Positions 2,711-11,365 of a DNA stretch of 15,452 nucleotides are shown here, one piece after another. The stretch is from positions 1 to 15,452 of the forward strand of contig JAADBR010000107.1 of assembly GCA_009995705.1 (NCBI GenBank), given 5' to 3'. The position numbers and the translations under genes were made by a program. Position 1 is the first letter of the stretch, and the number at the start of each line of letters is the position of its first letter. The notes beneath the pieces were generated by a model. It saw only the letters and a program-made list of their open reading frames with translations. It had not been told where the DNA came from and ran no database searches. The stretch comes from Microcystis aeruginosa W13-11 (GTDB taxonomy: Bacteria > Cyanobacteriota > Cyanobacteriia > Cyanobacteriales > Microcystaceae).

Positions 2711-4048
2711 TTAACTCCTACAAAATGCTCTCATAGTTTCGGCTACATACTCTAACATCTCCTTGGTTAATCCCGGAAATACCCCAATCCAAAACACTCC
2801 TTCCATGATTTTATCTGCATTACTCAAATCCCCAATAACTCGATAATTTAATCCTTGATACAGAGGTTGTCGCAGTAAATTACCCCCAAATAATAGCCTT
2901 GTGCCGATGCGTTTTTCCTCCAAATGCTTAACTAAATCATTACGGCTAAAAGGCGCATCTTCCTTAACTAAGATAGGAAAGCCGAACCAACTCGGTTCAG
3001 AATGGGGACTTGCTTCGGGCAGAACTAAAACATCTTGTAAGTCTTGTAATTTTTGATGTAAAAAGGCGAAATTTTCCCAGCGCTTTTGGATAAATTCTGG
3101 CAATTTATCCAGTTGAGCTACCCCTACAGCCGCTTGCATATCTGTCATCTTCAGGTTATAGCCCACATGAGAATAGGTGTACTTATGGTCGTAGCCAAAG
3201 GGTAAATCTCCTAACTGCCAACCGAAGCGTTTATTACAGGTATTATCTACCCCCGGAGGACACCAACAATCTCTCCCCCAGTCGCGGAAAGATTCGACAA
3301 TCTTTTTCAAGCGGGTATCACTGGTTAAAATCGCACCCCCTTCTCCCATGGTCATGTGATGGGCGGGATAAAAGCTAACCGTTGCTAAATGCCCAAAGGT
3401 GCCGGTTTTTTGCCCTTTATAGAGACTTCCCACTGCGTCACAGTTATCCTCAACTACCCAGAGGTCATGTTTTTCGGCAAAAGCCATCACCGCTTCTAAA
3501 TTAAACGGATTTCCCAAGGTATGAGCGATCATAATGGCTTTGGTCTTTTCTGACAGGGCTAATTCCAGCTGCTCGATGTCAAGGTCATAACCGGGTAATT
3601 TAACGTCTAAAAAGACCGGAATTAGCTGATTTTGGAAGATAGGATTAACTGTCGTGGGAAACCCTGCCGCAACGGTAATCACCTCATCCCCCGGTTTAAG
3701 TTGTTTTTCTGCCAATTTAGGGGAAGTTAAGGCACTTAAAGCCACTAAATTCGCTGAAGAACCCGAATTGACTAATAAACAATGTTTTACTCCCATCCAC
3801 TGGGCAAAACGTTCCTCAAATTCTGCGGCATATCTGCCCGTCGTGAGCCAGAAATCTAGGGAAGAATCCACTAATTTCACTAATTCTTGCTCATCAAATA
3901 CCTTACCCGAAACTGGAACATAGGTTTGCCCCGCCACAAAAGCCCGGGGTTGAAATTTGAAGTCATAGTATTTTTGAACCGCTTGGAAAACTTGCGACCG
4001 CAGTTCTGCTTCGGTAGTTGTACTGGGGGGAGAAATGGATTGAGTCAT
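2711..4048 (-). CDS. rfbH: RfbH: CDP-4-keto-6-deoxy-D-glucose 3-dehydrase (E1)
   Basis: This 445-residue protein has the usual length of RfbH/DdhC. The family uses pyridoxamine phosphate plus a [2Fe-2S] cluster to remove the C3 hydroxyl of CDP-6-deoxy-4-ketoglucose, working with a separate reductase (E3). Two diagnostic features are visible. The lysine that binds PLP in ordinary aminotransferases is replaced by histidine (His230 in [14 protein letters not shown]). The cluster ligands follow the E1 spacing C-X57-C-X1-C-X7-C at Cys203, Cys261, Cys263 and Cys271. Other fold motifs are NSGSSANL (94-101) and [11 protein letters not shown] (198-208). The gene follows the GT-B-like gene by 20 bp, so the two are probably co-transcribed. 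The ATG at 4048 gives the family start, with no strong Shine-Dalgarno. No reductase partner is in the window, so it must be encoded elsewhere or be a general ferredoxin reductase. Confidence 0.95.
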
Positions 4049-4068: not shown

Positions 4069-5112
4069 TTAGAAAAACCGCTCGATGAAACTGTTAATTG
4101 TTCTGTCTTTAAAATTGTCTAATTTCAATTTAGAACAACGTCTCCAGAAAAGGTTTTTTTTCTGACTTTCCGTTAATTCAATCCATTCATTATAGGTAGG
4201 AAACGCAAATTCCTCAAAAAATTTTATAAATCTTTCACAACCTTTTTCTGCGGTAAAATCCTTAGCCCTTTCCCTGGCATTGCTGACCATATTAGCATAA
4301 AGGTCGGGACTACTCTTTAACTTACTAACTGCTGATATAGCTTCGTCCAGAGAATTAACCAAAAGAAAGTCTAAGTCGCTTTTCTTTTCTGCCAAGATTG
4401 AGGACTCTGGAGTCACGATGGCTGGAACACCAGTTCGCCAACAATTGATTAATTTATTAGCGGGTTTGTTGATGTATGGATTGCCATCGAAACTTCTGGC
4501 AGTAATAACCACATCTATATTACTATAGTCGTTCCACTTTTTAGGCTCAAGAATTGGTAACCATTTGCATCCTAGAGAAGATAGAGCATCACGCCATTTA
4601 TCCGATTTCAGATCTTCTGCTAATTGAGATTGATGACCAAGATAAGCCACATTTTCAACTAGACAGCCACGCTCTTTCAATCGAGGGATCAATCCGGGCT
4701 GAGGCCAAAGTGAAACAAGGCAATAAGGATTCCAAATAGAATTACGGTTCTTCTGGAAATCCACGGGATTATTAACAATATTTATATGGGCAGGTGGATA
4801 AAACTGTTGATCAGATTTCACCACAATTAACATAGCATTTCCTGGATATTTGTAAAAACGGGTAGGTCTCCCAAGATATTTTTTGATCTCTAGCAAGGTT
4901 TTATCAAAACTCTTTCTATCTGCGAACACAATTCCTTCCTCAGGAATTGTGTTAATAACTTCACAATCTAAACCTGCCTTTTTAAGATAGATATAACTCG
5001 TCGCAATTTCCCCTGAAAAATGATCATGAATACCAAGGAAAGAGTCAGGATCTTGTCTGTTAAGTAACCGCATCTCCCTTTCACTTGTTGCGTAGAAGTA
5101 AACTTTGGTCAT
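4069..5112 (-). CDS. GT-B-like glycosyltransferase of unknown specificity
   Basis: This 347-residue soluble protein has no signal peptide or membrane segment. The N-terminal half carries a Rossmann-like start (MTKVYFYAT) and scattered charged segments. The C-terminal half contains VVITARSFDG (201-210) followed by KPANKLINCWRTGVPAI (216-232) and a helix-rich tail. The 'KP..KL...W..G.PAI..PES' pattern matches the nucleotide-sugar-binding half of GT-B glycosyltransferases, where a lysine and nearby residues contact the donor. Donor and acceptor cannot be read from sequence. It sits between rfbG and rfbH, 20 bp upstream of rfbH, so a role in adding a CDP-linked deoxysugar or another residue of the same glycan is plausible. 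Upstream are an inverted-repeat element and 284 bp without a gene, so it may have its own promoter. The family assignment is moderately sure. Confidence 0.68.
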   Translation of the reverse strand: MTKVYFYATSEREMRLLNRQDPDSFLGIHDHFSGEIATSYIYLKKAGLDCEVINTIPEEGIVFADRKSFDKTLLEIKKYLGRPTRFYKYPGNAMLIVVKSDQQFYPPAHINIVNNPVDFQKNRNSIWNPYCLVSLWPQPGLIPRLKERGCLVENVAYLGHQSQLAEDLKSDKWRDALSSLGCKWLPILEPKKWNDYSNIDVVITARSFDGNPYINKPANKLINCWRTGVPAIVTPESSILAEKKSDLDFLLVNSLDEAISAVSKLKSSPDLYANMVSNARERAKDFTAEKGCERFIKFFEEFAFPTYNEWIELTESQKKNLFWRRCSKLKLDNFKDRTINSFIERFF

Positions 5113-5123
5113 ATTTGTAGAAT

Positions 5124-5148
5124 TTATCCTAATGGTGATGTACGAAGT
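5124..5148 (+). repeat. Dispersed short repeat, copy 1 (left-half match)
   Basis: This stretch, TTATCCTAATGGTGATGTAC plus five bases, matches 9501-9525 at 22 of 25 positions by hand alignment. The similarity weakens to the right. It lies just upstream of the GT-B-like gene start and next to the inverted-repeat element at 5174-5387. It may be a remnant of a dispersed non-coding element. Confidence 0.4.
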
Positions 5149-5173
5149 CTCTGGTTTTGAGGAACGCTGGAAT

Positions 5174-5387
5174 GTAGTGGATTGTTTCAGCTAATTTGGT
5201 GTATTAGAAAAATGCTAAGTACCTAAGCAAAATTAATTACACATATCTAACCCCCTCTTGCCTTTTGCCTCTTGCCTTTTGCCTATCTTTACTAGGAAAT
5301 TAATTTTGCACGACTACTTATAAATTCTATAATCTAAGACTTTAAGCCGAAATCTATTGTCCTATTTTAGCTGAAACAGTCCAGTAA
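5174..5387. repeat. Nested inverted repeats, MITE-like non-coding element
   Basis: Two nested pairs of inverted arms are visible. The outer pair is ATTGTTTCAGCTAA (5181-5194) against TTAGCTGAAACAGT (5366-5379), 13 of 14 positions, extending imperfectly to about 5174 and 5387. The inner pair is GCAAAATTAATT (5227-5238) against AATTAATTTTGC (5298-5309), perfect, with TAAGTA/TACTTA at its outer side (5216-5221 and 5315-5320). The centre holds a 14-bp tandem repeat. There is no ORF inside. The form resembles a miniature inverted-repeat element, possibly one inserted in another. It separates rfbG from the next gene of the cluster and could act as a terminator or insulator, or simply be a remnant. 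Confidence 0.55.
5255..5282. repeat. Two perfect tandem copies of a 14-bp CTCTTGCCTTTTGC unit
   Basis: The unit occurs at 5255-5268 and again at 5269-5282, in the centre of the nested inverted repeat. Similar TTGCC/TTTGCC runs are, as I recall, common in intergenic DNA of cyanobacteria. No coding role is seen. Confidence 0.7.
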
Positions 5388-5396
5388 CAATAAGTA

Positions 5397-6542
5397 TTAT
5401 GGAACACAAAAGCTACCTACTTTTTCACTGAAGACATCGGCCTGGTATAGATCGATTTGTGATCGAGTTAAGTTTTGAAACCCTTGATTATTGCTAGGTG
5501 CAATTTGAGCCGCTTGATAATACCATGTCACCGTTTCCTTGAGGGTTTGCCGAAAATCCCAGACGGGTTGCCATTTTAGGGTATGGAAAGCCTTATCTGT
5601 GACTAGATTAAGCAATTTAGCCTCATGAACAGCATTCGGATCACTTTGATCGAGCCAAGTACCTGGCCAAAGTTGTAGGATAGACTCAACTAACTCTTTA
5701 ACTGGGCGATTAGAAGTCAGAGACGGACCGAAATTGAACGCCCCATATAACCCCCGGCTGTCTTGCTGCCAATTAGCCGTCATCAACTGCTCATAAATCG
5801 ACTCAGCCAACCGTAAATACCCCCCCAAAGGCTCTAAAACGTGCTGCCAAGGGCGAGTCGCTAAAGGGTTCCGCACGGGAATCGCTTCGGACTTCATCAA
5901 GGCCCGCATCGCATCGGGTACAATCCGATCTAGAGACCAATCTCCGCCACCGATGACATTTCCGGCCCTGGCGCTGGCAATGCCGATGGGGGTTTGAGGG
6001 GTTTTAAAGAAGGAATTTCGCCAAGATGCGATCGCCAATTCCGCCCCCGCTTTGCTAGAACTATAGGGATCATAACCCCCTAACGGGTCATTTTCCCGAT
6101 AACCATAGACCCATTCCCGATTCTCATAGCACTTATCGCTAGTAATAAACACGGCGGCACAGGGATTAGTCAGGCTTTTCAGGGCCTCTAAAACGTGAAT
6201 AGTCCCCATAACATTTGTGTTCCACGTTTCCACCGACTCCAGATAAGAAAGCCGCACTAGGGGTTGCGCTGCTAAATGAAAGACTACATCCGGTTGCCAT
6301 GAAGCGATTAAACGAGTTACTAACTCAGCCTCTCGAATATCCCCTATATGGTGACTCAAATTTTTAGCTAAGTCTAATTGGTTAAATAAAGCGGGGGTGG
6401 TATTGGGAGCTAAACTGAGGCCTTTTACCGCTGCCCCCAGATGGAGTAACCAAAAGGCCAGCCAAGACCCCTTAAAGCCAGTATGACCCGTGATAAAGAC
6501 CTTTTTGCCTGGCCAAAATGCTTTCTTTACCATATTTTCCAT
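5397..6542 (-). CDS. rfbG: RfbG: CDP-glucose 4,6-dehydratase (intact copy)
   Basis: This 381-residue NAD-dependent short-chain dehydrogenase of the extended type converts CDP-glucose to CDP-4-keto-6-deoxyglucose, the substrate of RfbH. The NAD-binding glycine motif is GHTGFKG (19-25). The dehydratase active site TSDKCYEN (134-141) supplies Asp136 and Lys137, and the catalytic YxxxK is Tyr160-Lys164. Length is near the usual 355-380. The ATG at 6542 overlaps the 3' end of an rfbF stub by 16 bp, as the equivalent ATG at 8531 overlaps full rfbF, so this start is ancestral. Here the stub replaces a working rfbF, and rfbG is about 2 kb from its partner with a glycosyltransferase gene between. Its transcription may depend on a promoter in the inserted DNA (6777-6806). 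The first about 93 codons are duplicated at 8253-8531. Confidence 0.95.
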   Translation of the reverse strand: MENMVKKAFWPGKKVFITGHTGFKGSWLAFWLLHLGAAVKGLSLAPNTTPALFNQLDLAKNLSHHIGDIREAELVTRLIASWQPDVVFHLAAQPLVRLSYLESVETWNTNVMGTIHVLEALKSLTNPCAAVFITSDKCYENREWVYGYRENDPLGGYDPYSSSKAGAELAIASWRNSFFKTPQTPIGIASARAGNVIGGGDWSLDRIVPDAMRALMKSEAIPVRNPLATRPWQHVLEPLGGYLRLAESIYEQLMTANWQQDSRGLYGAFNFGPSLTSNRPVKELVESILQLWPGTWLDQSDPNAVHEAKLLNLVTDKAFHTLKWQPVWDFRQTLKETVTWYYQAAQIAPSNNQGFQNLTRSQIDLYQADVFSEKVGSFCVP

Positions 6543-6624
6543 CTAGCTTGTCCAGTGTCATAAAGGTGATTGAGTATTTCCATTTCTCGGTAAGTATCCA
6601 TGCACCGCCAAAACCCATCAGGCT
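6264..6624. repeat. 361-bp direct repeat, copy A (end of rfbF stub and start of intact rfbG)
   Basis: It aligns without gaps to 8253-8613 at a constant offset of 1989. I count about 35 mismatches, so about 90% identity. The copy spans the last 31 codons of rfbF and the first 93 of rfbG. Similarity ends sharply at 6624/6625, where the rfbF stub meets unrelated DNA. Towards lower coordinates rfbG simply continues. Confidence 0.93.
6527..6624 (-). pseudogene. rfbF: 3' stub of a second rfbF copy
   Basis: Read on the minus strand, this encodes PDGFWRCMDTYREMEILNHL then YDTGQARWKIW and a stop at 6527-6529. It matches the C-terminus of the full RfbF with two substitutions in the aligned 31 residues after the junction (Gln to Arg, Leu to Ile). 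Everything 5' of this is missing and replaced by unrelated sequence, so no enzyme can be made. It marks one breakpoint of the rfbF-rfbG rearrangement and keeps the original 16-bp overlap with rfbG. Confidence 0.9.
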
Positions 6625-6866
6625 CGTCCCGGAAGGAGAGGGGAGCTATTATTGTCCACAAGTCAAATAGACTCGCTATACTGGGTTTTCAGTTAATTTC
6701 AACAGCTTTGTGCAAGTAATCCCTGAAAAGAGTCTTCGTGAAGGCTTAAACCTATCACCCTAACTCTTTGGTATCCACTATACATGAACTTGACCGAGGA
6801 TGTCAATTGGTTAAGGGGCTTTGACAATTCATCTAGTCCTGCTATATATAGGCTGTAATTAAACTT
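6625..6866. other. Non-coding DNA between GT87-like gene and rfbF stub
   Basis: About 240 bp with no plausible ORF on either strand. It belongs to the DNA inserted between the two rfbF-rfbG repeat copies. The only structure I can support is a promoter-like pair facing rfbG at 6777-6806. The rest may be a remnant of an older element, but I recognise none. Confidence 0.5.
6777..6806 (-). promoter_or_regulatory. Putative sigma-70 type promoter facing rfbG
   Basis: On the minus strand a perfect -35 TTGACA (6801-6806) is followed, after an 18-nt spacer, by TATAGT (6777-6782). Transcription would start near 6770 and run through the rfbF stub into rfbG. It lies in the inserted DNA, so rfbG could be expressed although separated from rfbF. 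The match is by eye only. Confidence 0.5.
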
Positions 6867-8186
6867 TTATCCAGAAAATTTGCCAGACAATCTCTTATGT
6901 ACTAAACTTTTTAGCCATTCAGGCATAGAGAGAATTGCCATGTATAATAAATTGGCAGCTAAGAGCCAATTGATCATTTCATCAACTAACCAAGGATATA
7001 AGAATGGACTTGCGTAAAAGGTTACCACTATAGCGACTAAAGCCATACTGCAAGGTAAGCTTAATTGATTTTCTTGCTTAATCCAATCCAAGATTTGAGG
7101 AAGGGCAAAGATGAGAAAAGTTAATTTGTAATCATAAAGCATGCCGATAACAAGAAAATTTCCTAAATGAATTGCTGCCGCAAGACGGAAGTAATCAATG
7201 TGTCGACTCTTATCTAAAGATTTGTCCAAATCGGTTGAGATAAAATCCGAACTAAGCCATTCTTTAAAATTTTTAAATTTCGACAATAAAACTCTGGTTA
7301 AGATTGACATAGTATATAAAATCATAATTATATATATCATATATTTGACCGTCCCTTTAATATCAGTTTCGCCGCTAGTAAGCTTTAATAGAATATATTT
7401 GACTGCACTAAAGAGGACTTTATAGCCAAAACTATACCAAATCCTCCCATCATGAATGCTTGAGATAGTTTTCATCTCCCCTACACTAGCGAGAAAATAA
7501 GTAATAAAAGCAGTGGTAAAAATAGCCGACAAGAACAGAAATAGATTTCTTTTTTCTTTAATAATTACTGCCAGACCGAAAATGGGAAATAGTTTAATAA
7601 CTCCCCAAAAAAATATTAACAAATAGGCACACAACCTAAAAATTAATGCTCGGCTATTTTTAATTATTATTAGTCCGACACCAAGCCAGGAATAGATAAC
7701 AATGTCTACGTTGCCACGTTCGACTAAAAGCATTACCGGTGGTGAGCATAAAATTAGGGCATAAACTATAGCTTCTTGATAATTTAATCTGCCAATGATA
7801 ATTAAAGTTATCACATAAAAGATTAGAGCAAACAAAACTCCTAAAAATATAGTATTACGCTGCCCTAACCCCAGCCAAGTTAATGAAGACCAGCTACTAG
7901 GATAAGCTATTTGAGTGAAGCAGGAATTATTTGTGAGGGAAACTTTGCCTGTCAATCGATCACAATCAAAAGCACCTAATACGGCTGCAAGATCGATAAA
8001 AGGGTTTTCAGCCGCAGGAACCCCAAGTCTCCACCAAAAATTGTGATAGGGAACAAAAAAGTTAGCTAGATACAATAACCCAAAATACCCTAAGAGTGCG
8101 GCAATTACCAAAAATCTGCCATCAATTTTTGATTGCTGTTTGAGCATTTTCCTAATCTGGATATGTATTGAATTTACTATGTCCAC
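6867..8186 (-). CDS. GT87-like (DUF2029) polytopic membrane glycosyltransferase
   Basis: A hydrophobic protein with about 10 membrane segments. With the start chosen here it has 439 residues. GT87-like features are an early non-cytoplasmic loop rich in acidic residues (PFIDLAAVLGAFDCDR, about 62-77), the LLVERGNVD stretch (about 154-161) and KLFP (198-201). GT87 enzymes, such as mycobacterial mannosyltransferases, take sugars from polyprenyl phosphate carriers; the sugar here is unknown. The GTG at 8186 is preferred because a perfect AGGAGG lies 6 nt upstream. An in-frame TTG at 8225 would add 13 residues but has no ribosome binding site. A possible -10 TATACT lies on the minus strand at 8238-8243. 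The gene is the main cargo between two diverged rfbF-rfbG repeats, and its AT-rich DNA suggests acquisition from another source. Confidence 0.82.
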   Translation of the reverse strand: MDIVNSIHIQIRKMLKQQSKIDGRFLVIAALLGYFGLLYLANFFVPYHNFWWRLGVPAAENPFIDLAAVLGAFDCDRLTGKVSLTNNSCFTQIAYPSSWSSLTWLGLGQRNTIFLGVLFALIFYVITLIIIGRLNYQEAIVYALILCSPPVMLLVERGNVDIVIYSWLGVGLIIIKNSRALIFRLCAYLLIFFWGVIKLFPIFGLAVIIKEKRNLFLFLSAIFTTAFITYFLASVGEMKTISSIHDGRIWYSFGYKVLFSAVKYILLKLTSGETDIKGTVKYMIYIIMILYTMSILTRVLLSKFKNFKEWLSSDFISTDLDKSLDKSRHIDYFRLAAAIHLGNFLVIGMLYDYKLTFLIFALPQILDWIKQENQLSLPCSMALVAIVVTFYASPFLYPWLVDEMINWLLAANLLYMAILSMPEWLKSLVHKRLSGKFSG

Positions 8187-8192
8187 TTTGTG

Positions 8193-8198
8193 CCTCCT
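8193..8198 (-). promoter_or_regulatory. Shine-Dalgarno AGGAGG deciding the GTG start of the GT87-like gene
   Basis: Minus-strand AGGAGG is followed by 6 nt and then GTG at 8184-8186. A perfect Shine-Dalgarno is uncommon among the genes of this window, so it is strong support for the shorter reading frame. Confidence 0.75.
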
Positions 8199-8252
8199 GC
8201 TATTAAAGGATTGATTATCTGTCAATGACCTGAGTTCAGTATAAGACGCTCA

Positions 8253-8531
8253 TTGCGCTGCTAAATGAAAGGCTACATCTGGTCGCCATGAAGAGATTAA
8301 AAGACCTACTAACTCAGCCTCTCGAATATCTCCTAGATGGTGACTCAGGTTCTGAGCTAAGTCTAATTGCTCAAATAAGGTGGGGGGGGTATTAGGAGCT
8401 AAACTGAGGCCTTTTACCGCTGCTCCCAAATGGAGCAACCAAAACGCCAGTCAAGACCCCTTAAAGCCGGTATGACCAGTAATAAAGACCTTTTTGCCCG
8501 GCCAAAATGCTTCCTTTACCATATTTTCCAT
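8253..8531 (-). pseudogene. rfbG: Truncated rfbG copy with internal stop
   Basis: The minus strand from the ATG at 8531 reads MENMVKEAFWPGKKVFITGH, TGFKGS, then a TGA at 8451-8453 where the intact copy has TGG (Trp27, 6462-6464). In-frame similarity continues to the AAQ at about residue 93, then ends at the junction at 8253. The NAD-binding motif is present, but the active site and the whole C-terminal two thirds are absent. An in-frame ATG restarts a 62-codon ORF after the stop; nothing suggests a working product. It overlaps the 3' end of full rfbF by 16 bp. Confidence 0.92.
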
Positions 8532-8613
8532 CTGGCTTGTCCAGTGTCATAAAGGTGATTGAGTAGTTCCATTTCTCGGTAAGTGTCCATACACTGCCAA
8601 AACCCATCATGCT
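8253..8613. repeat. 361-bp direct repeat, copy B (end of full rfbF and start of broken rfbG)
   Basis: Partner of 6264-6624 with about 90% identity. It stops sharply at 8252/8253, inside what was rfbG codon 93. Towards higher coordinates full rfbF continues. Many of the differences are synonymous, so the two alleles diverged while still functional and were brought together later. Confidence 0.93.
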
Positions 8614-9346
8614 TATAGACGGCGAGTTCTCCTAAAGCGGCCAGGGTTCTTAGGGGCTGTGCCTCAAAAGTCGTCGCATCTCCCTCAATTAAATCCAAAA
8701 CCTTGCGATTTAAGACAAAATAGCCCCCATTAATCCATCCCTCAGCCGTTTGTGGCTTTTCTTGGAATTGAGTGACTAGATTACCCTCAATGATTAACTC
8801 GCCAAAGCGAGAAGAAGGACGAACCGCTGTCATAGTGGCTAATTTGCCATGGGAGTAATGGAAATCCAACAGATCCGCAATATTCACATCACAAACCCCA
8901 TCCCCATAGGTGGCTAAAAAGATCTCGCTTCCACTTTGGTCTATATAAGGGGTGAGACGTTTAAGACGGCCTCCCGTCATGGTTTCCTGTCCTGTATCAA
9001 CTAACCAAATACGCCAGTCTTCTTCCTCGTGTCCACTATCGAGTTTGGTCACTTTTTTATTGCCTAACTCTAAGAGAACATCACTTTGATTCCAATCATA
9101 GCTAAAGAAATAGTCCCGAATCATTTCCCCTTTATACCCTAGACAGAGCATAAAGTCAGTGAAGCCATAGTGGGCATAAGTTTTCATGATATGCCAAATA
9201 ATTGGCCGATTTCCGATGGCAATCATCGGTTTAGGTCGAAATTCGGTTTCTTCCCGCAGTCGGGTTCCTTTGCCACCACACAAGATGGCCACGAGAATGT
9301 TAGACTTATAGTCCTTAACTGTTAAACTGACCGATTGTACTACCAT
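8516..9346 (-). CDS. rfbF: RfbF: glucose-1-phosphate cytidylyltransferase
   Basis: The enzyme joins CTP and alpha-D-glucose 1-phosphate to make CDP-glucose, the first committed step of CDP-deoxysugar synthesis. The nucleotide-binding start is LCGGKGTRLREET (22-34) with Lys39-Pro40 of the substrate site, WRIWLVDTG (111-119) and metal-binding TYGDG (146-150). At 276 residues it is about 15-20 longer than typical RfbF, because of an N-terminal extension before ILVAILCGG. A GTG at codon 19 would give a more usual length but has no Shine-Dalgarno, so I keep the ATG. A TATAAT lies only 3 nt upstream of that ATG, so either the transcript is nearly leaderless or the true start is internal. The stop overlaps the broken rfbG start by 16 bp. 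It is the first gene of the minus-strand cluster. Confidence 0.94.
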   Translation of the reverse strand: MVVQSVSLTVKDYKSNILVAILCGGKGTRLREETEFRPKPMIAIGNRPIIWHIMKTYAHYGFTDFMLCLGYKGEMIRDYFFSYDWNQSDVLLELGNKKVTKLDSGHEEEDWRIWLVDTGQETMTGGRLKRLTPYIDQSGSEIFLATYGDGVCDVNIADLLDFHYSHGKLATMTAVRPSSRFGELIIEGNLVTQFQEKPQTAEGWINGGYFVLNRKVLDLIEGDATTFEAQPLRTLAALGELAVYKHDGFWQCMDTYREMELLNHLYDTGQARWKIW

Positions 9347-9349
9347 TAG

Positions 9350-9355
9350 ATTATA
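9350..9355 (-). promoter_or_regulatory. TATAAT box just upstream of the rfbF ATG
   Basis: A perfect -10 hexamer on the minus strand, 3 nt before the annotated ATG. No good -35 is seen; the best is a weak TGTCAC-like match about 18 nt upstream. If used, initiation would fall at or inside the annotated start codon. Confidence 0.3.
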
Positions 9356-9500
9356 TGGTGAAAGGCTTTTAGAGTGACATCATCTTATCGAGGCAGTTTA
9401 ACACGGGATTCCCGATTGTGTGCAATATCTGTTTAAAAAAATTTTTGTTAAGCGGGTGTCTCTAGTTTATTGCTAAACAGGCTCTTAAATCTTCTAGCAG

Positions 9501-9552
9501 TTATCTTAATGGTGAGGTACGAGGTTTTCCTTTTGGGGAGTCGGTCGTCGGC
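9501..9552 (+). repeat. Dispersed short repeat, copy 2 (upstream of GT39-like gene)
   Basis: Its left half (9501-9525) matches 5124-5148 at 22 of 25 positions. Its right half (9519-9552) matches 11304-11337 at 29 of 34. The common core is TTTTGGGGAGTCGGTC. The copies on either side of the GT39-like gene have the same orientation. Confidence 0.55.
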
Positions 9553-9644
9553 CGGCGATGCCAAATCAGGTTATACTTCATCCTTATCAGCAACTAGGAC
9601 TGGAAATTTGCGCTACCATAGGAAGATAAATATTCGGGGATACG

Positions 9645-11261
9645 GTGGCAAAACTACCAGACAATTTTAGGATAAAAATACCGACAATTATGGGGAAATC
9701 AATCAATAAAGTCCGAGGAACGGCACTGATTTTAGGGATTCTAGCGATCGCCTTTGCCTTTTTCACGAGGATTGTCAGTATTTTTGAATACGTTACTTTC
9801 GATATCGGACCCGATCCCGATCAGATTAGCGGTGCTTATCTTTGGATGGATATGTGGAAGGGAAACTTTCCTCAATTAGGACCCGCGGGTGGGGGTGGAA
9901 AATATGGATTCGTAATTCCTCCCCTCTATGGTTATTTAGCATTTCCTTTGACAATTTTCGGTGCCGATCCCGAATTTCAAGTCCTTACCAATGGCCTATT
10001 TTCTTTTCTATCGATTCCCCTCTTAATCTACTTTGTTTATCAACTTTTAGAAAATGTAGAACAAGATAAACGTCTGCTCCTGTCTAGTTTAGCAGGATTT
10101 TGGTATAGCATGATTTATACGGACTATTTCATTAATAATTTTTCCTGGGGACCTAGCCCAATACCCTTTTTTATGCTCGTTTTTGCTTTACTCTATCGCT
10201 TCCAGATAGAAACGACTAAGCCGCTGCTCTATCAGGCTATAGCTTGGATATTCTTCGGGATTACCGTCGCTATATTGGTGAGTTTACACAGCACCACAAT
10301 GTTAATTATCCCAGCGACTTCTGTTATCGCCTGTCTGTGGTTTGTTTATCGCAATCGCAATGATACTCGTAAATGTCTTTTGCCTTTTCTATCGATTCTC
10401 TCTGCAAATCTCGCCTTGATTATGTATTGGCACAGTGAGATAGTTGGGAGATTTGCCAATACGAGGGGAATCGTGAGAGTGCTCACGGAAAAGGGGGCAA
10501 GTGCCGAACCATCAAGCAATCTGTTCACTCGTATATTTAAAGCGATTTGGGAAACGGTTTATCTGGGCAATCAAGTATTTTTTTTGAATGACAACATATC
10601 GATTTTTAATGTCGTAGTTTCGGCTACTTTTTTTGTCATTTCTCTATACATAGTCATCAAAAAATATCGAGGCAATAAAACAATAATCGGCTTTTTGGCG
10701 ATTACTTGGATAATTTTTCTCTACGCTTCCTCTAATTATCCTGATGAGCATTTTTATTCCCATCGTAAAATCTTACTCTGGTTTGCTCCTATTCTTCTGG
10801 CGATCGCCAGCCTAGCCTATCTAAACTTGACTAGGACTTTCCACAGGATCCTCGCTCTAGTTCTAGCAATTATCATCGGCTATTCTATCGCAACTAATCT
10901 GTATTTTAATCAACGTTATCTTGCTAGTAAATACGGTTCCGAAAGACTCCTATCCGTGGCCGATACAGTGGAAATTATCAATCAGATTCCGGTTGGTTCA
11001 ACCCTTTGCGATCCGGCTAAGAAAGGCAAAAGAAAAGAGCATGGCCAGTACGATTATATCGATACCTTTATGACCAAAAGAGAGCTAATGATCACCAATG
11101 CCTGCCCATCGGGTAGTTATTACATACAGCCGAAATTTAAAATGGCTATGCAAATGAACGATTTATTTCCAATTTTTACCCTCGTCAAAACTCCCCCTCT
11201 CGAACGCCCGATGACTTCCCTTCTGGAAACCCCAGAAGCCTATCTCCATAAAATCGAGTAG
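9645..11261 (+). CDS. GT39-like polytopic membrane glycosyltransferase
   Basis: A 538-residue protein with about 10-12 hydrophobic segments starting at 25-45. The first loop reads TFDIGPDPDQISGAYLWMDM (51-70) then WKGNFPQLGP, with Asp53, Asp57 and Asp59. An acidic first loop followed by 'G..P..GP' is typical of GT39/ArnT-like (PMT superfamily) enzymes that transfer sugars from polyprenyl phosphates on the outer face of the membrane. The C-terminus carries a short soluble domain of about 100 residues with several cysteines. The start is GTG at 9645 with GGGGA 4 nt upstream; an ATG at 9690 is the alternative. It is transcribed away from the rfb cluster and flanked by direct repeats (9519-9552 and 11304-11337), so it may be a separate acquired unit. 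The substrate is unknown. Confidence 0.76.
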   Translation: MAKLPDNFRIKIPTIMGKSINKVRGTALILGILAIAFAFFTRIVSIFEYVTFDIGPDPDQISGAYLWMDMWKGNFPQLGPAGGGGKYGFVIPPLYGYLAFPLTIFGADPEFQVLTNGLFSFLSIPLLIYFVYQLLENVEQDKRLLLSSLAGFWYSMIYTDYFINNFSWGPSPIPFFMLVFALLYRFQIETTKPLLYQAIAWIFFGITVAILVSLHSTTMLIIPATSVIACLWFVYRNRNDTRKCLLPFLSILSANLALIMYWHSEIVGRFANTRGIVRVLTEKGASAEPSSNLFTRIFKAIWETVYLGNQVFFLNDNISIFNVVVSATFFVISLYIVIKKYRGNKTIIGFLAITWIIFLYASSNYPDEHFYSHRKILLWFAPILLAIASLAYLNLTRTFHRILALVLAIIIGYSIATNLYFNQRYLASKYGSERLLSVADTVEIINQIPVGSTLCDPAKKGKRKEHGQYDYIDTFMTKRELMITNACPSGSYYIQPKFKMAMQMNDLFPIFTLVKTPPLERPMTSLLETPEAYLHKIE

Positions 11262-11303: not shown

Positions 11304-11337
11304 GACGAAGTTTCCGTTTTGGGGAGTCGGTCATCAG
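11304..11337 (+). repeat. Dispersed short repeat, copy 3 (downstream of GT39-like gene)
   Basis: It matches 9519-9552 at 29 of 34 positions without gaps and has the same orientation. It lies in the 104-bp gap between the convergent GT39-like and SRPBCC genes. Confidence 0.55.
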
Positions 11338-11365
11338 CAATTTCATAGCCAAGCCGATGATTAGC

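Follow-up and report, generated by a model that had tools for sequence, protein, structure and literature searches.

How did a glycosyltransferase gene come to lie between two copies of the junction of two other genes, and can it leave again? This question was raised by a 15,452-nucleotide stretch of Microcystis aeruginosa W13-11 (assembly GCA_009995705.1, contig JAADBR010000107.1), referred to as the window. Here, rfbF and rfbG of a cytidine diphosphate (CDP)-sugar operon are separated by a GT87-like glycosyltransferase gene, and the rfbF-rfbG junction is present on both sides of it. The locus was compared among 12 species-representative Microcystis genomes (G001-G012). It is probably an old, repeat-bounded glycosyltransferase cassette whose copy number has been changed by recombination.

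Two copies of the rfbF-rfbG junction

The upstream repeat R1 (8253-8613) and the downstream repeat R2 (6264-6624) lie on the minus strand at an offset of 1989 base pairs (bp), as do the operon genes, the cassette gene, its spacer, and the promoter candidate described below. Each repeat is 361 bp long; 35 mismatches and no gaps were counted between them (90.3% identity), in agreement with an earlier note on this DNA. Identity drops to background beyond both sharp ends, and the first 300 bases of both copies were listed as one repeat family. Both span the rfbF-rfbG junction, with 98 bp of rfbF and 263 bp more that reach into rfbG. As the note had described, R1 combines the end of a full-length rfbF (8516-9346), whose 3'-terminal 98 bases are part of the repeat, with a broken rfbG, and R2 combines a dead rfbF 3' stub with the start of a full-length rfbG (5397-6542). 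The rfbG stub of R1 amounts to 90 codons counted from MVK and 93 counted from MEN; it contains an in-frame TGA at 8451-8453, and a second TGA stands right at the breakpoint. The full-length genes encode a glucose-1-phosphate cytidylyltransferase (RfbF; NCBIfam TIGR02623, 342.6 bits, cut-off 300.25) and a CDP-glucose 4,6-dehydratase (RfbG; TIGR02622, 472.7 bits, cut-off 278.45).

The interval between the repeats measures 1628 bp and holds a single open reading frame (ORF) of more than 80 amino acids (aa), which starts with TTG (6867-8225); the roughly 1.6 kb with a GT87-like gene reported earlier were thus found. A GTG at 8186, located after AGGAGG, is the likelier start and gives a protein of 439 aa (6867-8186), because an in-frame TAA directly precedes this GTG in G002, G004, G008, and G010 and most close homologues measure 439-444 aa. 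The predicted fold of the protein matches PimE, which identifies the cassette product, at the level of a structure prediction, as a GT-C enzyme. PimE is a GT-C mannosyltransferase of family GT87 with a polyprenyl-phosphate donor; despite the likeness in predicted fold, the window protein is only 10% identical to it and has no Pfam domain at E ≤ 1. It is labelled only GT87-like because it does not match the GT87 Pfam model. Among 118 homologues, drawn from the 7998 candidates with most words in common that were scored, PF09594 was found in 13, at 27-45% identity to the window protein, and a profile of the homologues gave no match at E ≤ 1 to sequences of solved structures. In GT87 and GT-C enzymes, the first outer loop carries an acidic residue that takes part in catalysis; D65 of the window protein, a candidate for it, is invariant across 31 aligned sequences. 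The frame was open in all nine copies examined; G009 and G011 were excluded from the set used for the ratio of nonsynonymous (dN) to synonymous (dS) divergence. Derivation of the gene from a neighboring sugar cluster was rejected, as the stretches fetched for distant homologues in G068, G278, G011 (contig 60), and G043 contained no rfbF, rfbG, or rfbH at E ≤ 1e-8.

Distribution of the cassette in Microcystis

The glycosyltransferase gene was found in this setting in eight of the 12 genomes, one copy being degraded. In G001, G002, G008, G010, and G012, a single contig holds it with a junction copy on either side; in G004, G009, and G011, the cassette is divided between two contigs. G005 has a remnant: R2 and part of the spacer are kept, the glycosyltransferase gene is gone, and rfbF is located some 45 kb from there. 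In G003 and G006, the rfbF-rfbG junction is uninterrupted; the repeat occurs once and the cassette gene is absent. G007 gave no match. The uninterrupted junction for which the earlier note would have searched sister genomes is thus present in two of the 12, beside eight with the cassette.

Eight R1-type ends extend as far as the joint: those of the window, G001, G004, G008, and G009 and three of G012. All of them read GC[A/G]CAA and then, across the joint, TGA followed by the same leader. The R1 joint shows deletions in G002 and G010, and R1 is broken earlier in G005 and G011; the joint before R2 is identical in the 11 copies printed, save for a small change in G005. A stop at codon 7 of rfbG occurs in six of nine R1 copies (it is absent from R1 of the window, G004, and G009), in none of nine R2 copies, and in neither uninterrupted junction. 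Similarly, a C at position 4 was found in six of nine R2 copies and in none of ten R1 copies; this change adjoins the breakpoint and could date from the original joint. Because the breakpoints are common across the genus, the sequences argue for an old arrangement of single origin, i.e. one event that was inherited or spread rather than many, and not for a recent entry. The earlier proposal that a cassette had entered a conserved sugar operon through its shared junction was borne out for the operon and the junction. The recent date was not: the cassette or its remnant is present in nine of 12 genomes, and breakpoints and copy-specific substitutions recur across genomes.

G012, a two-contig assembly, carries three cassette units in tandem. 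Units 1 and 3 show no mismatches over 1,890 bp, a perfect tract whose two ends fall inside the repeats, whereas the intervening unit 2 is about 5% divergent. The three spacers have a motif in common that is absent from the other eight printed; furthermore, dS between gene copies 1 and 2 is 0.054, as compared to at least 0.104 for the between-strain pairs examined. Since the spacers carry a private motif and this dS lies below that of any between-strain pair, the array probably grew in place.

According to the proposed mechanism, the coding rfbF-rfbG junction before and after the GT87-like gene would act as portable homology. The direct repeats that flank this gene are long enough for homologous recombination, judged by the wzy-type system discussed below. 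Homologous (RecA-type) recombination between them would remove the cassette and leave a seamless rfbF-rfbG junction, and the same recombination could multiply the cassette or swap its alleles between strains. In R1 the live rfbF end faces outward, and in R2 the live rfbG start does so; a single crossover located upstream of the first stop of R1 would therefore yield two intact genes and no scar. Loss of the cassette in this way is likely, not proven, for the uninterrupted strains. The GT-C product would draw on a lipid-linked sugar and attach it to a surface glycan, and because of this presumed role, cassette number would alter the cell surface, e.g. towards phages. It is possible, though less likely than not, that the duplicated junction is a working genetic switch, with cassettes continually added, removed, and multiplied in Microcystis populations while both sugar-nucleotide genes stay intact. 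If true, the number of cassettes (0, 1, or 3) would vary among bloom cells, and surface glycan and sensitivity to phages with it.

Divergence of the repeats and competing explanations

The many synonymous changes had been read in the earlier note as evidence for two alleles that evolved apart and were joined later, not for a recent tandem duplication. Alignment of the window repeats gave a dS of 0.29 and a dN of 0.066 in the rfbG part; pooled across strains, dS was 0.19-0.23 among R1, among R2, and between R1 and R2. Mean identity of repeat copies was 0.9235 within genomes and 0.9244 between genomes (nine strains, permutation P = 0.73). Nineteen of the 35 window differences are polymorphisms, each state being present in at least two other copies. 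A further 11 are R1 states present in at most one other copy; nine of these are within the rfbG stub, seven of them in codons altering an amino acid or stop. The other five are rare R2-specific states (four in rfbG, three of those synonymous). The rare R1 states in the dead stub represent ordinary drift. In a test similar to the pairwise homoplasy index (PHI), recombination among the copies was detected, none of 2000 permutations being as low as the observed value (50 sites). Recombination among the copies of the genus explains the mixture without any need to join two foreign alleles in one event. Repeat copies of one genome resemble each other no more than copies of different genomes do, so the two-allele claim is partly right, by way of genus-wide recombination, and the rejection of a recent tandem duplication stands. 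Neither a fresh duplication nor a mere union of two foreign alleles describes R1 and R2, which combine shuffled genus-wide variation with drift of a dead gene. The whole cassette allele was possibly imported into the window lineage from another strain. Trees of the repeats, also proposed earlier, did not place R1 and R2 of the window as sisters, but all nodes except three had support below 60, and the trees were uninformative on origin.

Additionally, each repeat appears to be less constrained in the half that is dead. In the rfbG part, dN was 0.059 for R1, where it is dead, and 0.035 for R2, where it is live; in the rfbF part, the values were 0.017 (R1, live) and 0.053 (R2, dead). The share of codon bootstraps with dN higher in R1 than in R2 was 1.000 for the rfbG part and 0.003 for the rfbF part.

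Several observations weigh against a cassette that recombines through its repeats. R1 and R2 of the window share no perfect tract longer than 31 bp (the longest in G008 measures 108 bp), and recombination in the window may be rare for this reason. The codon-7 stop in six of nine R1 copies limits scarless crossovers at these copies to the first ~110 bp. General homogenization of repeats within genomes was not supported (P = 0.73; rfbF part alone, P = 0.10), local cases being G008, with R1 and R2 95.6% identical, and the G012 array. A stricter test, in which R1 and R2 labels were swapped within strains, gave P = 0.12 for the asymmetry in rfbG and P = 0.023 for that in rfbF. The stubs do not look neutral: because the dead halves still show dN/dS of 0.26 (rfbG, 0.15-0.42) and 0.47 (rfbF, 0.12-2.64, an interval that includes 1), they suggest either refreshment from live copies or recent death. 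The glycosyltransferase copy of G011 is truncated and has an in-frame TGA. Moreover, rfbG follows rfbF without interruption at 19 of the 22 outgroup loci tested, and G003 and G006 may never have had the cassette; joining these two genomes was not rejected in an approximately unbiased (AU) test (P = 0.0503), and the core-gene support that bears on loss or original absence is modest.

Three other histories were considered. A recent entry of the cassette into an intact rfbF-rfbG junction of this lineage, joining two diverged alleles, would account for 35 differences in 361 bp, for dS and dN of the rfbG part, and for the 19 differences found as polymorphisms elsewhere; with breakpoints and copy-specific substitutions common to the genomes and with cassette or remnant in nine of 12, we consider it very unlikely. 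An ancient template-switch or illegitimate duplication, followed by decay only and by no recombination between the repeats, is hardly more probable. It agrees with the absence of terminal inverted repeats of at least 12 nucleotides (nt) and of a transposase-sized second ORF, and with the decay of R1 in G001, G002, G005, G010, and G011. It leaves unexplained the perfect 1,890-bp tract in the three-unit array and the mosaic sites among repeat copies, and the two uninterrupted genomes are ungrouped in the core tree, though not significantly.

The remaining history takes G003 and G006 as ancestral and lets the cassette spread later by homologous transfer of the interrupted locus. It overlaps the explanation preferred here and differs only in the source of the empty state. 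The junction is uninterrupted in Leptolyngbya as well as in the 19 outgroup loci, the AU test leaves a grouping of G003 with G006 open, and homologous recombination is described as frequent in Microcystis in the available text of PMC10433662; in a tree of three core genes, however, the two genomes stand apart, with 68-85% support at the nearest nodes. We regard this history as possible rather than probable, and an old repeat-bounded cassette changed in number by recombination as the better explanation.

Other vehicles were tried and rejected. For a transposon with target duplication, 12 inverted pairs of at least 12 nt were found in 6600-8300, none of which joins the cassette ends, and the glycosyltransferase gene is the one ORF above 80 aa in the 1628 bp, a test that covers transposase-coding elements only. 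A megablast search, the only one made, found no near match in the plasmid set, and the six pattern matches in viral contigs included no relative.

Surroundings of the cassette and related systems

The spacer between the glycosyltransferase gene and R2 (6625-6866) contains a sigma-70-like promoter candidate, TTGACA-18-TATAGT, at 6777-6806 upstream of R2 and rfbG, with 11 of 12 consensus matches. TTGACA is present in all 11 spacers printed and TATAGT in ten, the whole spacer being conserved. By consensus match only, the candidate may drive rfbG when the cassette is present; promoter-like sites in 6200-9700 numbered 15 vs. 9.4 (standard deviation 3.2) in shuffles, no clear excess. The spacer part adjoining R2 is kept despite insertion of another gene (G001, G004, G008, G009, G010) or loss of the GT87-like gene (G005). 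In the former five genomes, ~1.5-2.9 kb of inserted DNA separate the GT87-like gene from the kept part (e.g. L116, 2972-4624, with similar DNA in L108, L112, L117, and L119); the insert of G001 and G008 includes a 300-aa gene on the opposite strand with homologues in other cyanobacteria, and that of G001 also a DDE transposase. A structured leader RNA in the spacer was rejected, with no Rfam match in the window; the hairpin possible at 6627-6770, after the promoter candidate, in the window (and G002) folds little better than shuffles (z -1.5 and -1.9).

Beyond rfbG follow a further gene (4069-5112), rfbH (2711-4048; NCBIfam NF011936, 758.1 bits, cut-off 423), a later gene of the same pathway, and a gene for a 713-aa protein (494-2635); RfbF, RfbG, and RfbH all score above their cut-offs. 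Window RfbG shares 90-94% identity with four named Microcystis loci and 68% with the next best, from Leptolyngbya; it measures 381 aa in the window and G001 and 372-377 aa in G005, G008, and G012. By sampled words, G001 is the nearest genome, with 27% in common with the window. The gene between rfbG and rfbH (within 4069-5396) has a weak glycosyltransferase match (E = 0.13) and occurs in the window and G001, with no match in or near the rfbG-rfbH interval of the ten other genomes. At 2635-2711, the window is without the rmlC-like, epimerase-like, and GT2 genes found between rfbH and the 713-aa gene in G001 and G012. A second gene beside rfbF (ORF 9645-11261, 538 aa, no Pfam match) lies between 34-bp direct repeats of 85% identity (9519-9552 and 11305-11338). 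G002 is without it and keeps one repeat copy at the same right flank, as for excision or an unoccupied site; this is the sole clean case, since G003, G005, G011, and G012 also lack the gene but are rearranged there. Elsewhere, the gyrB frame (loci L154-L165) falls into two length classes in Microcystis, 643-659 aa (five genomes) and 891-1078 aa (seven genomes); inteins or another insertion may account for the extra length.

A repeat-flanked, reversibly excised O-antigen gene is already known. For the wzy locus of Salmonella Typhimurium, the available text describes identical repeats of 113 bp, deletion of 2558 bp, a circle demonstrated by polymerase chain reaction (PCR), and reversion in co-culture, and discusses homologous recombination as one possible mechanism (PMC12074656). 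Like the Microcystis cassette, wzy is a surface-glycan gene between direct repeats, with strains that have one repeat and no gene. Its repeats are intergenic, whereas those of Microcystis, 361 bp long and 90% identical, are coding sequence of both flanking genes; excision, circle, and reversion were observed for wzy, whereas excision of the Microcystis cassette is proposed from sequence comparison. Because the repeats here are the coding junction of the operon itself, a crossover at the right place would restore both genes. Horizontally acquired glycosyltransferases diversify the lipopolysaccharide of Salmonella (PMC3688519); according to the available text, these are operons and apparently not a cassette flanked by duplicates of a junction of host genes. 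A description of the present locus was found neither in an open-licence PubMed Central search nor in the available parts of PMC4390846 and PMC10433662, which is no proof of absence.

A glycan-modifying gene can thus sit in an operon at no cost to its neighbors, with a coding junction that doubles as recombination homology and can heal scarlessly. Copies that are 90% identical and carry many synonymous differences need not indicate a recent foreign join where a genus recombines often. If active, the cassette would provide bloom-forming Microcystis with a simple way to vary its surface sugars.

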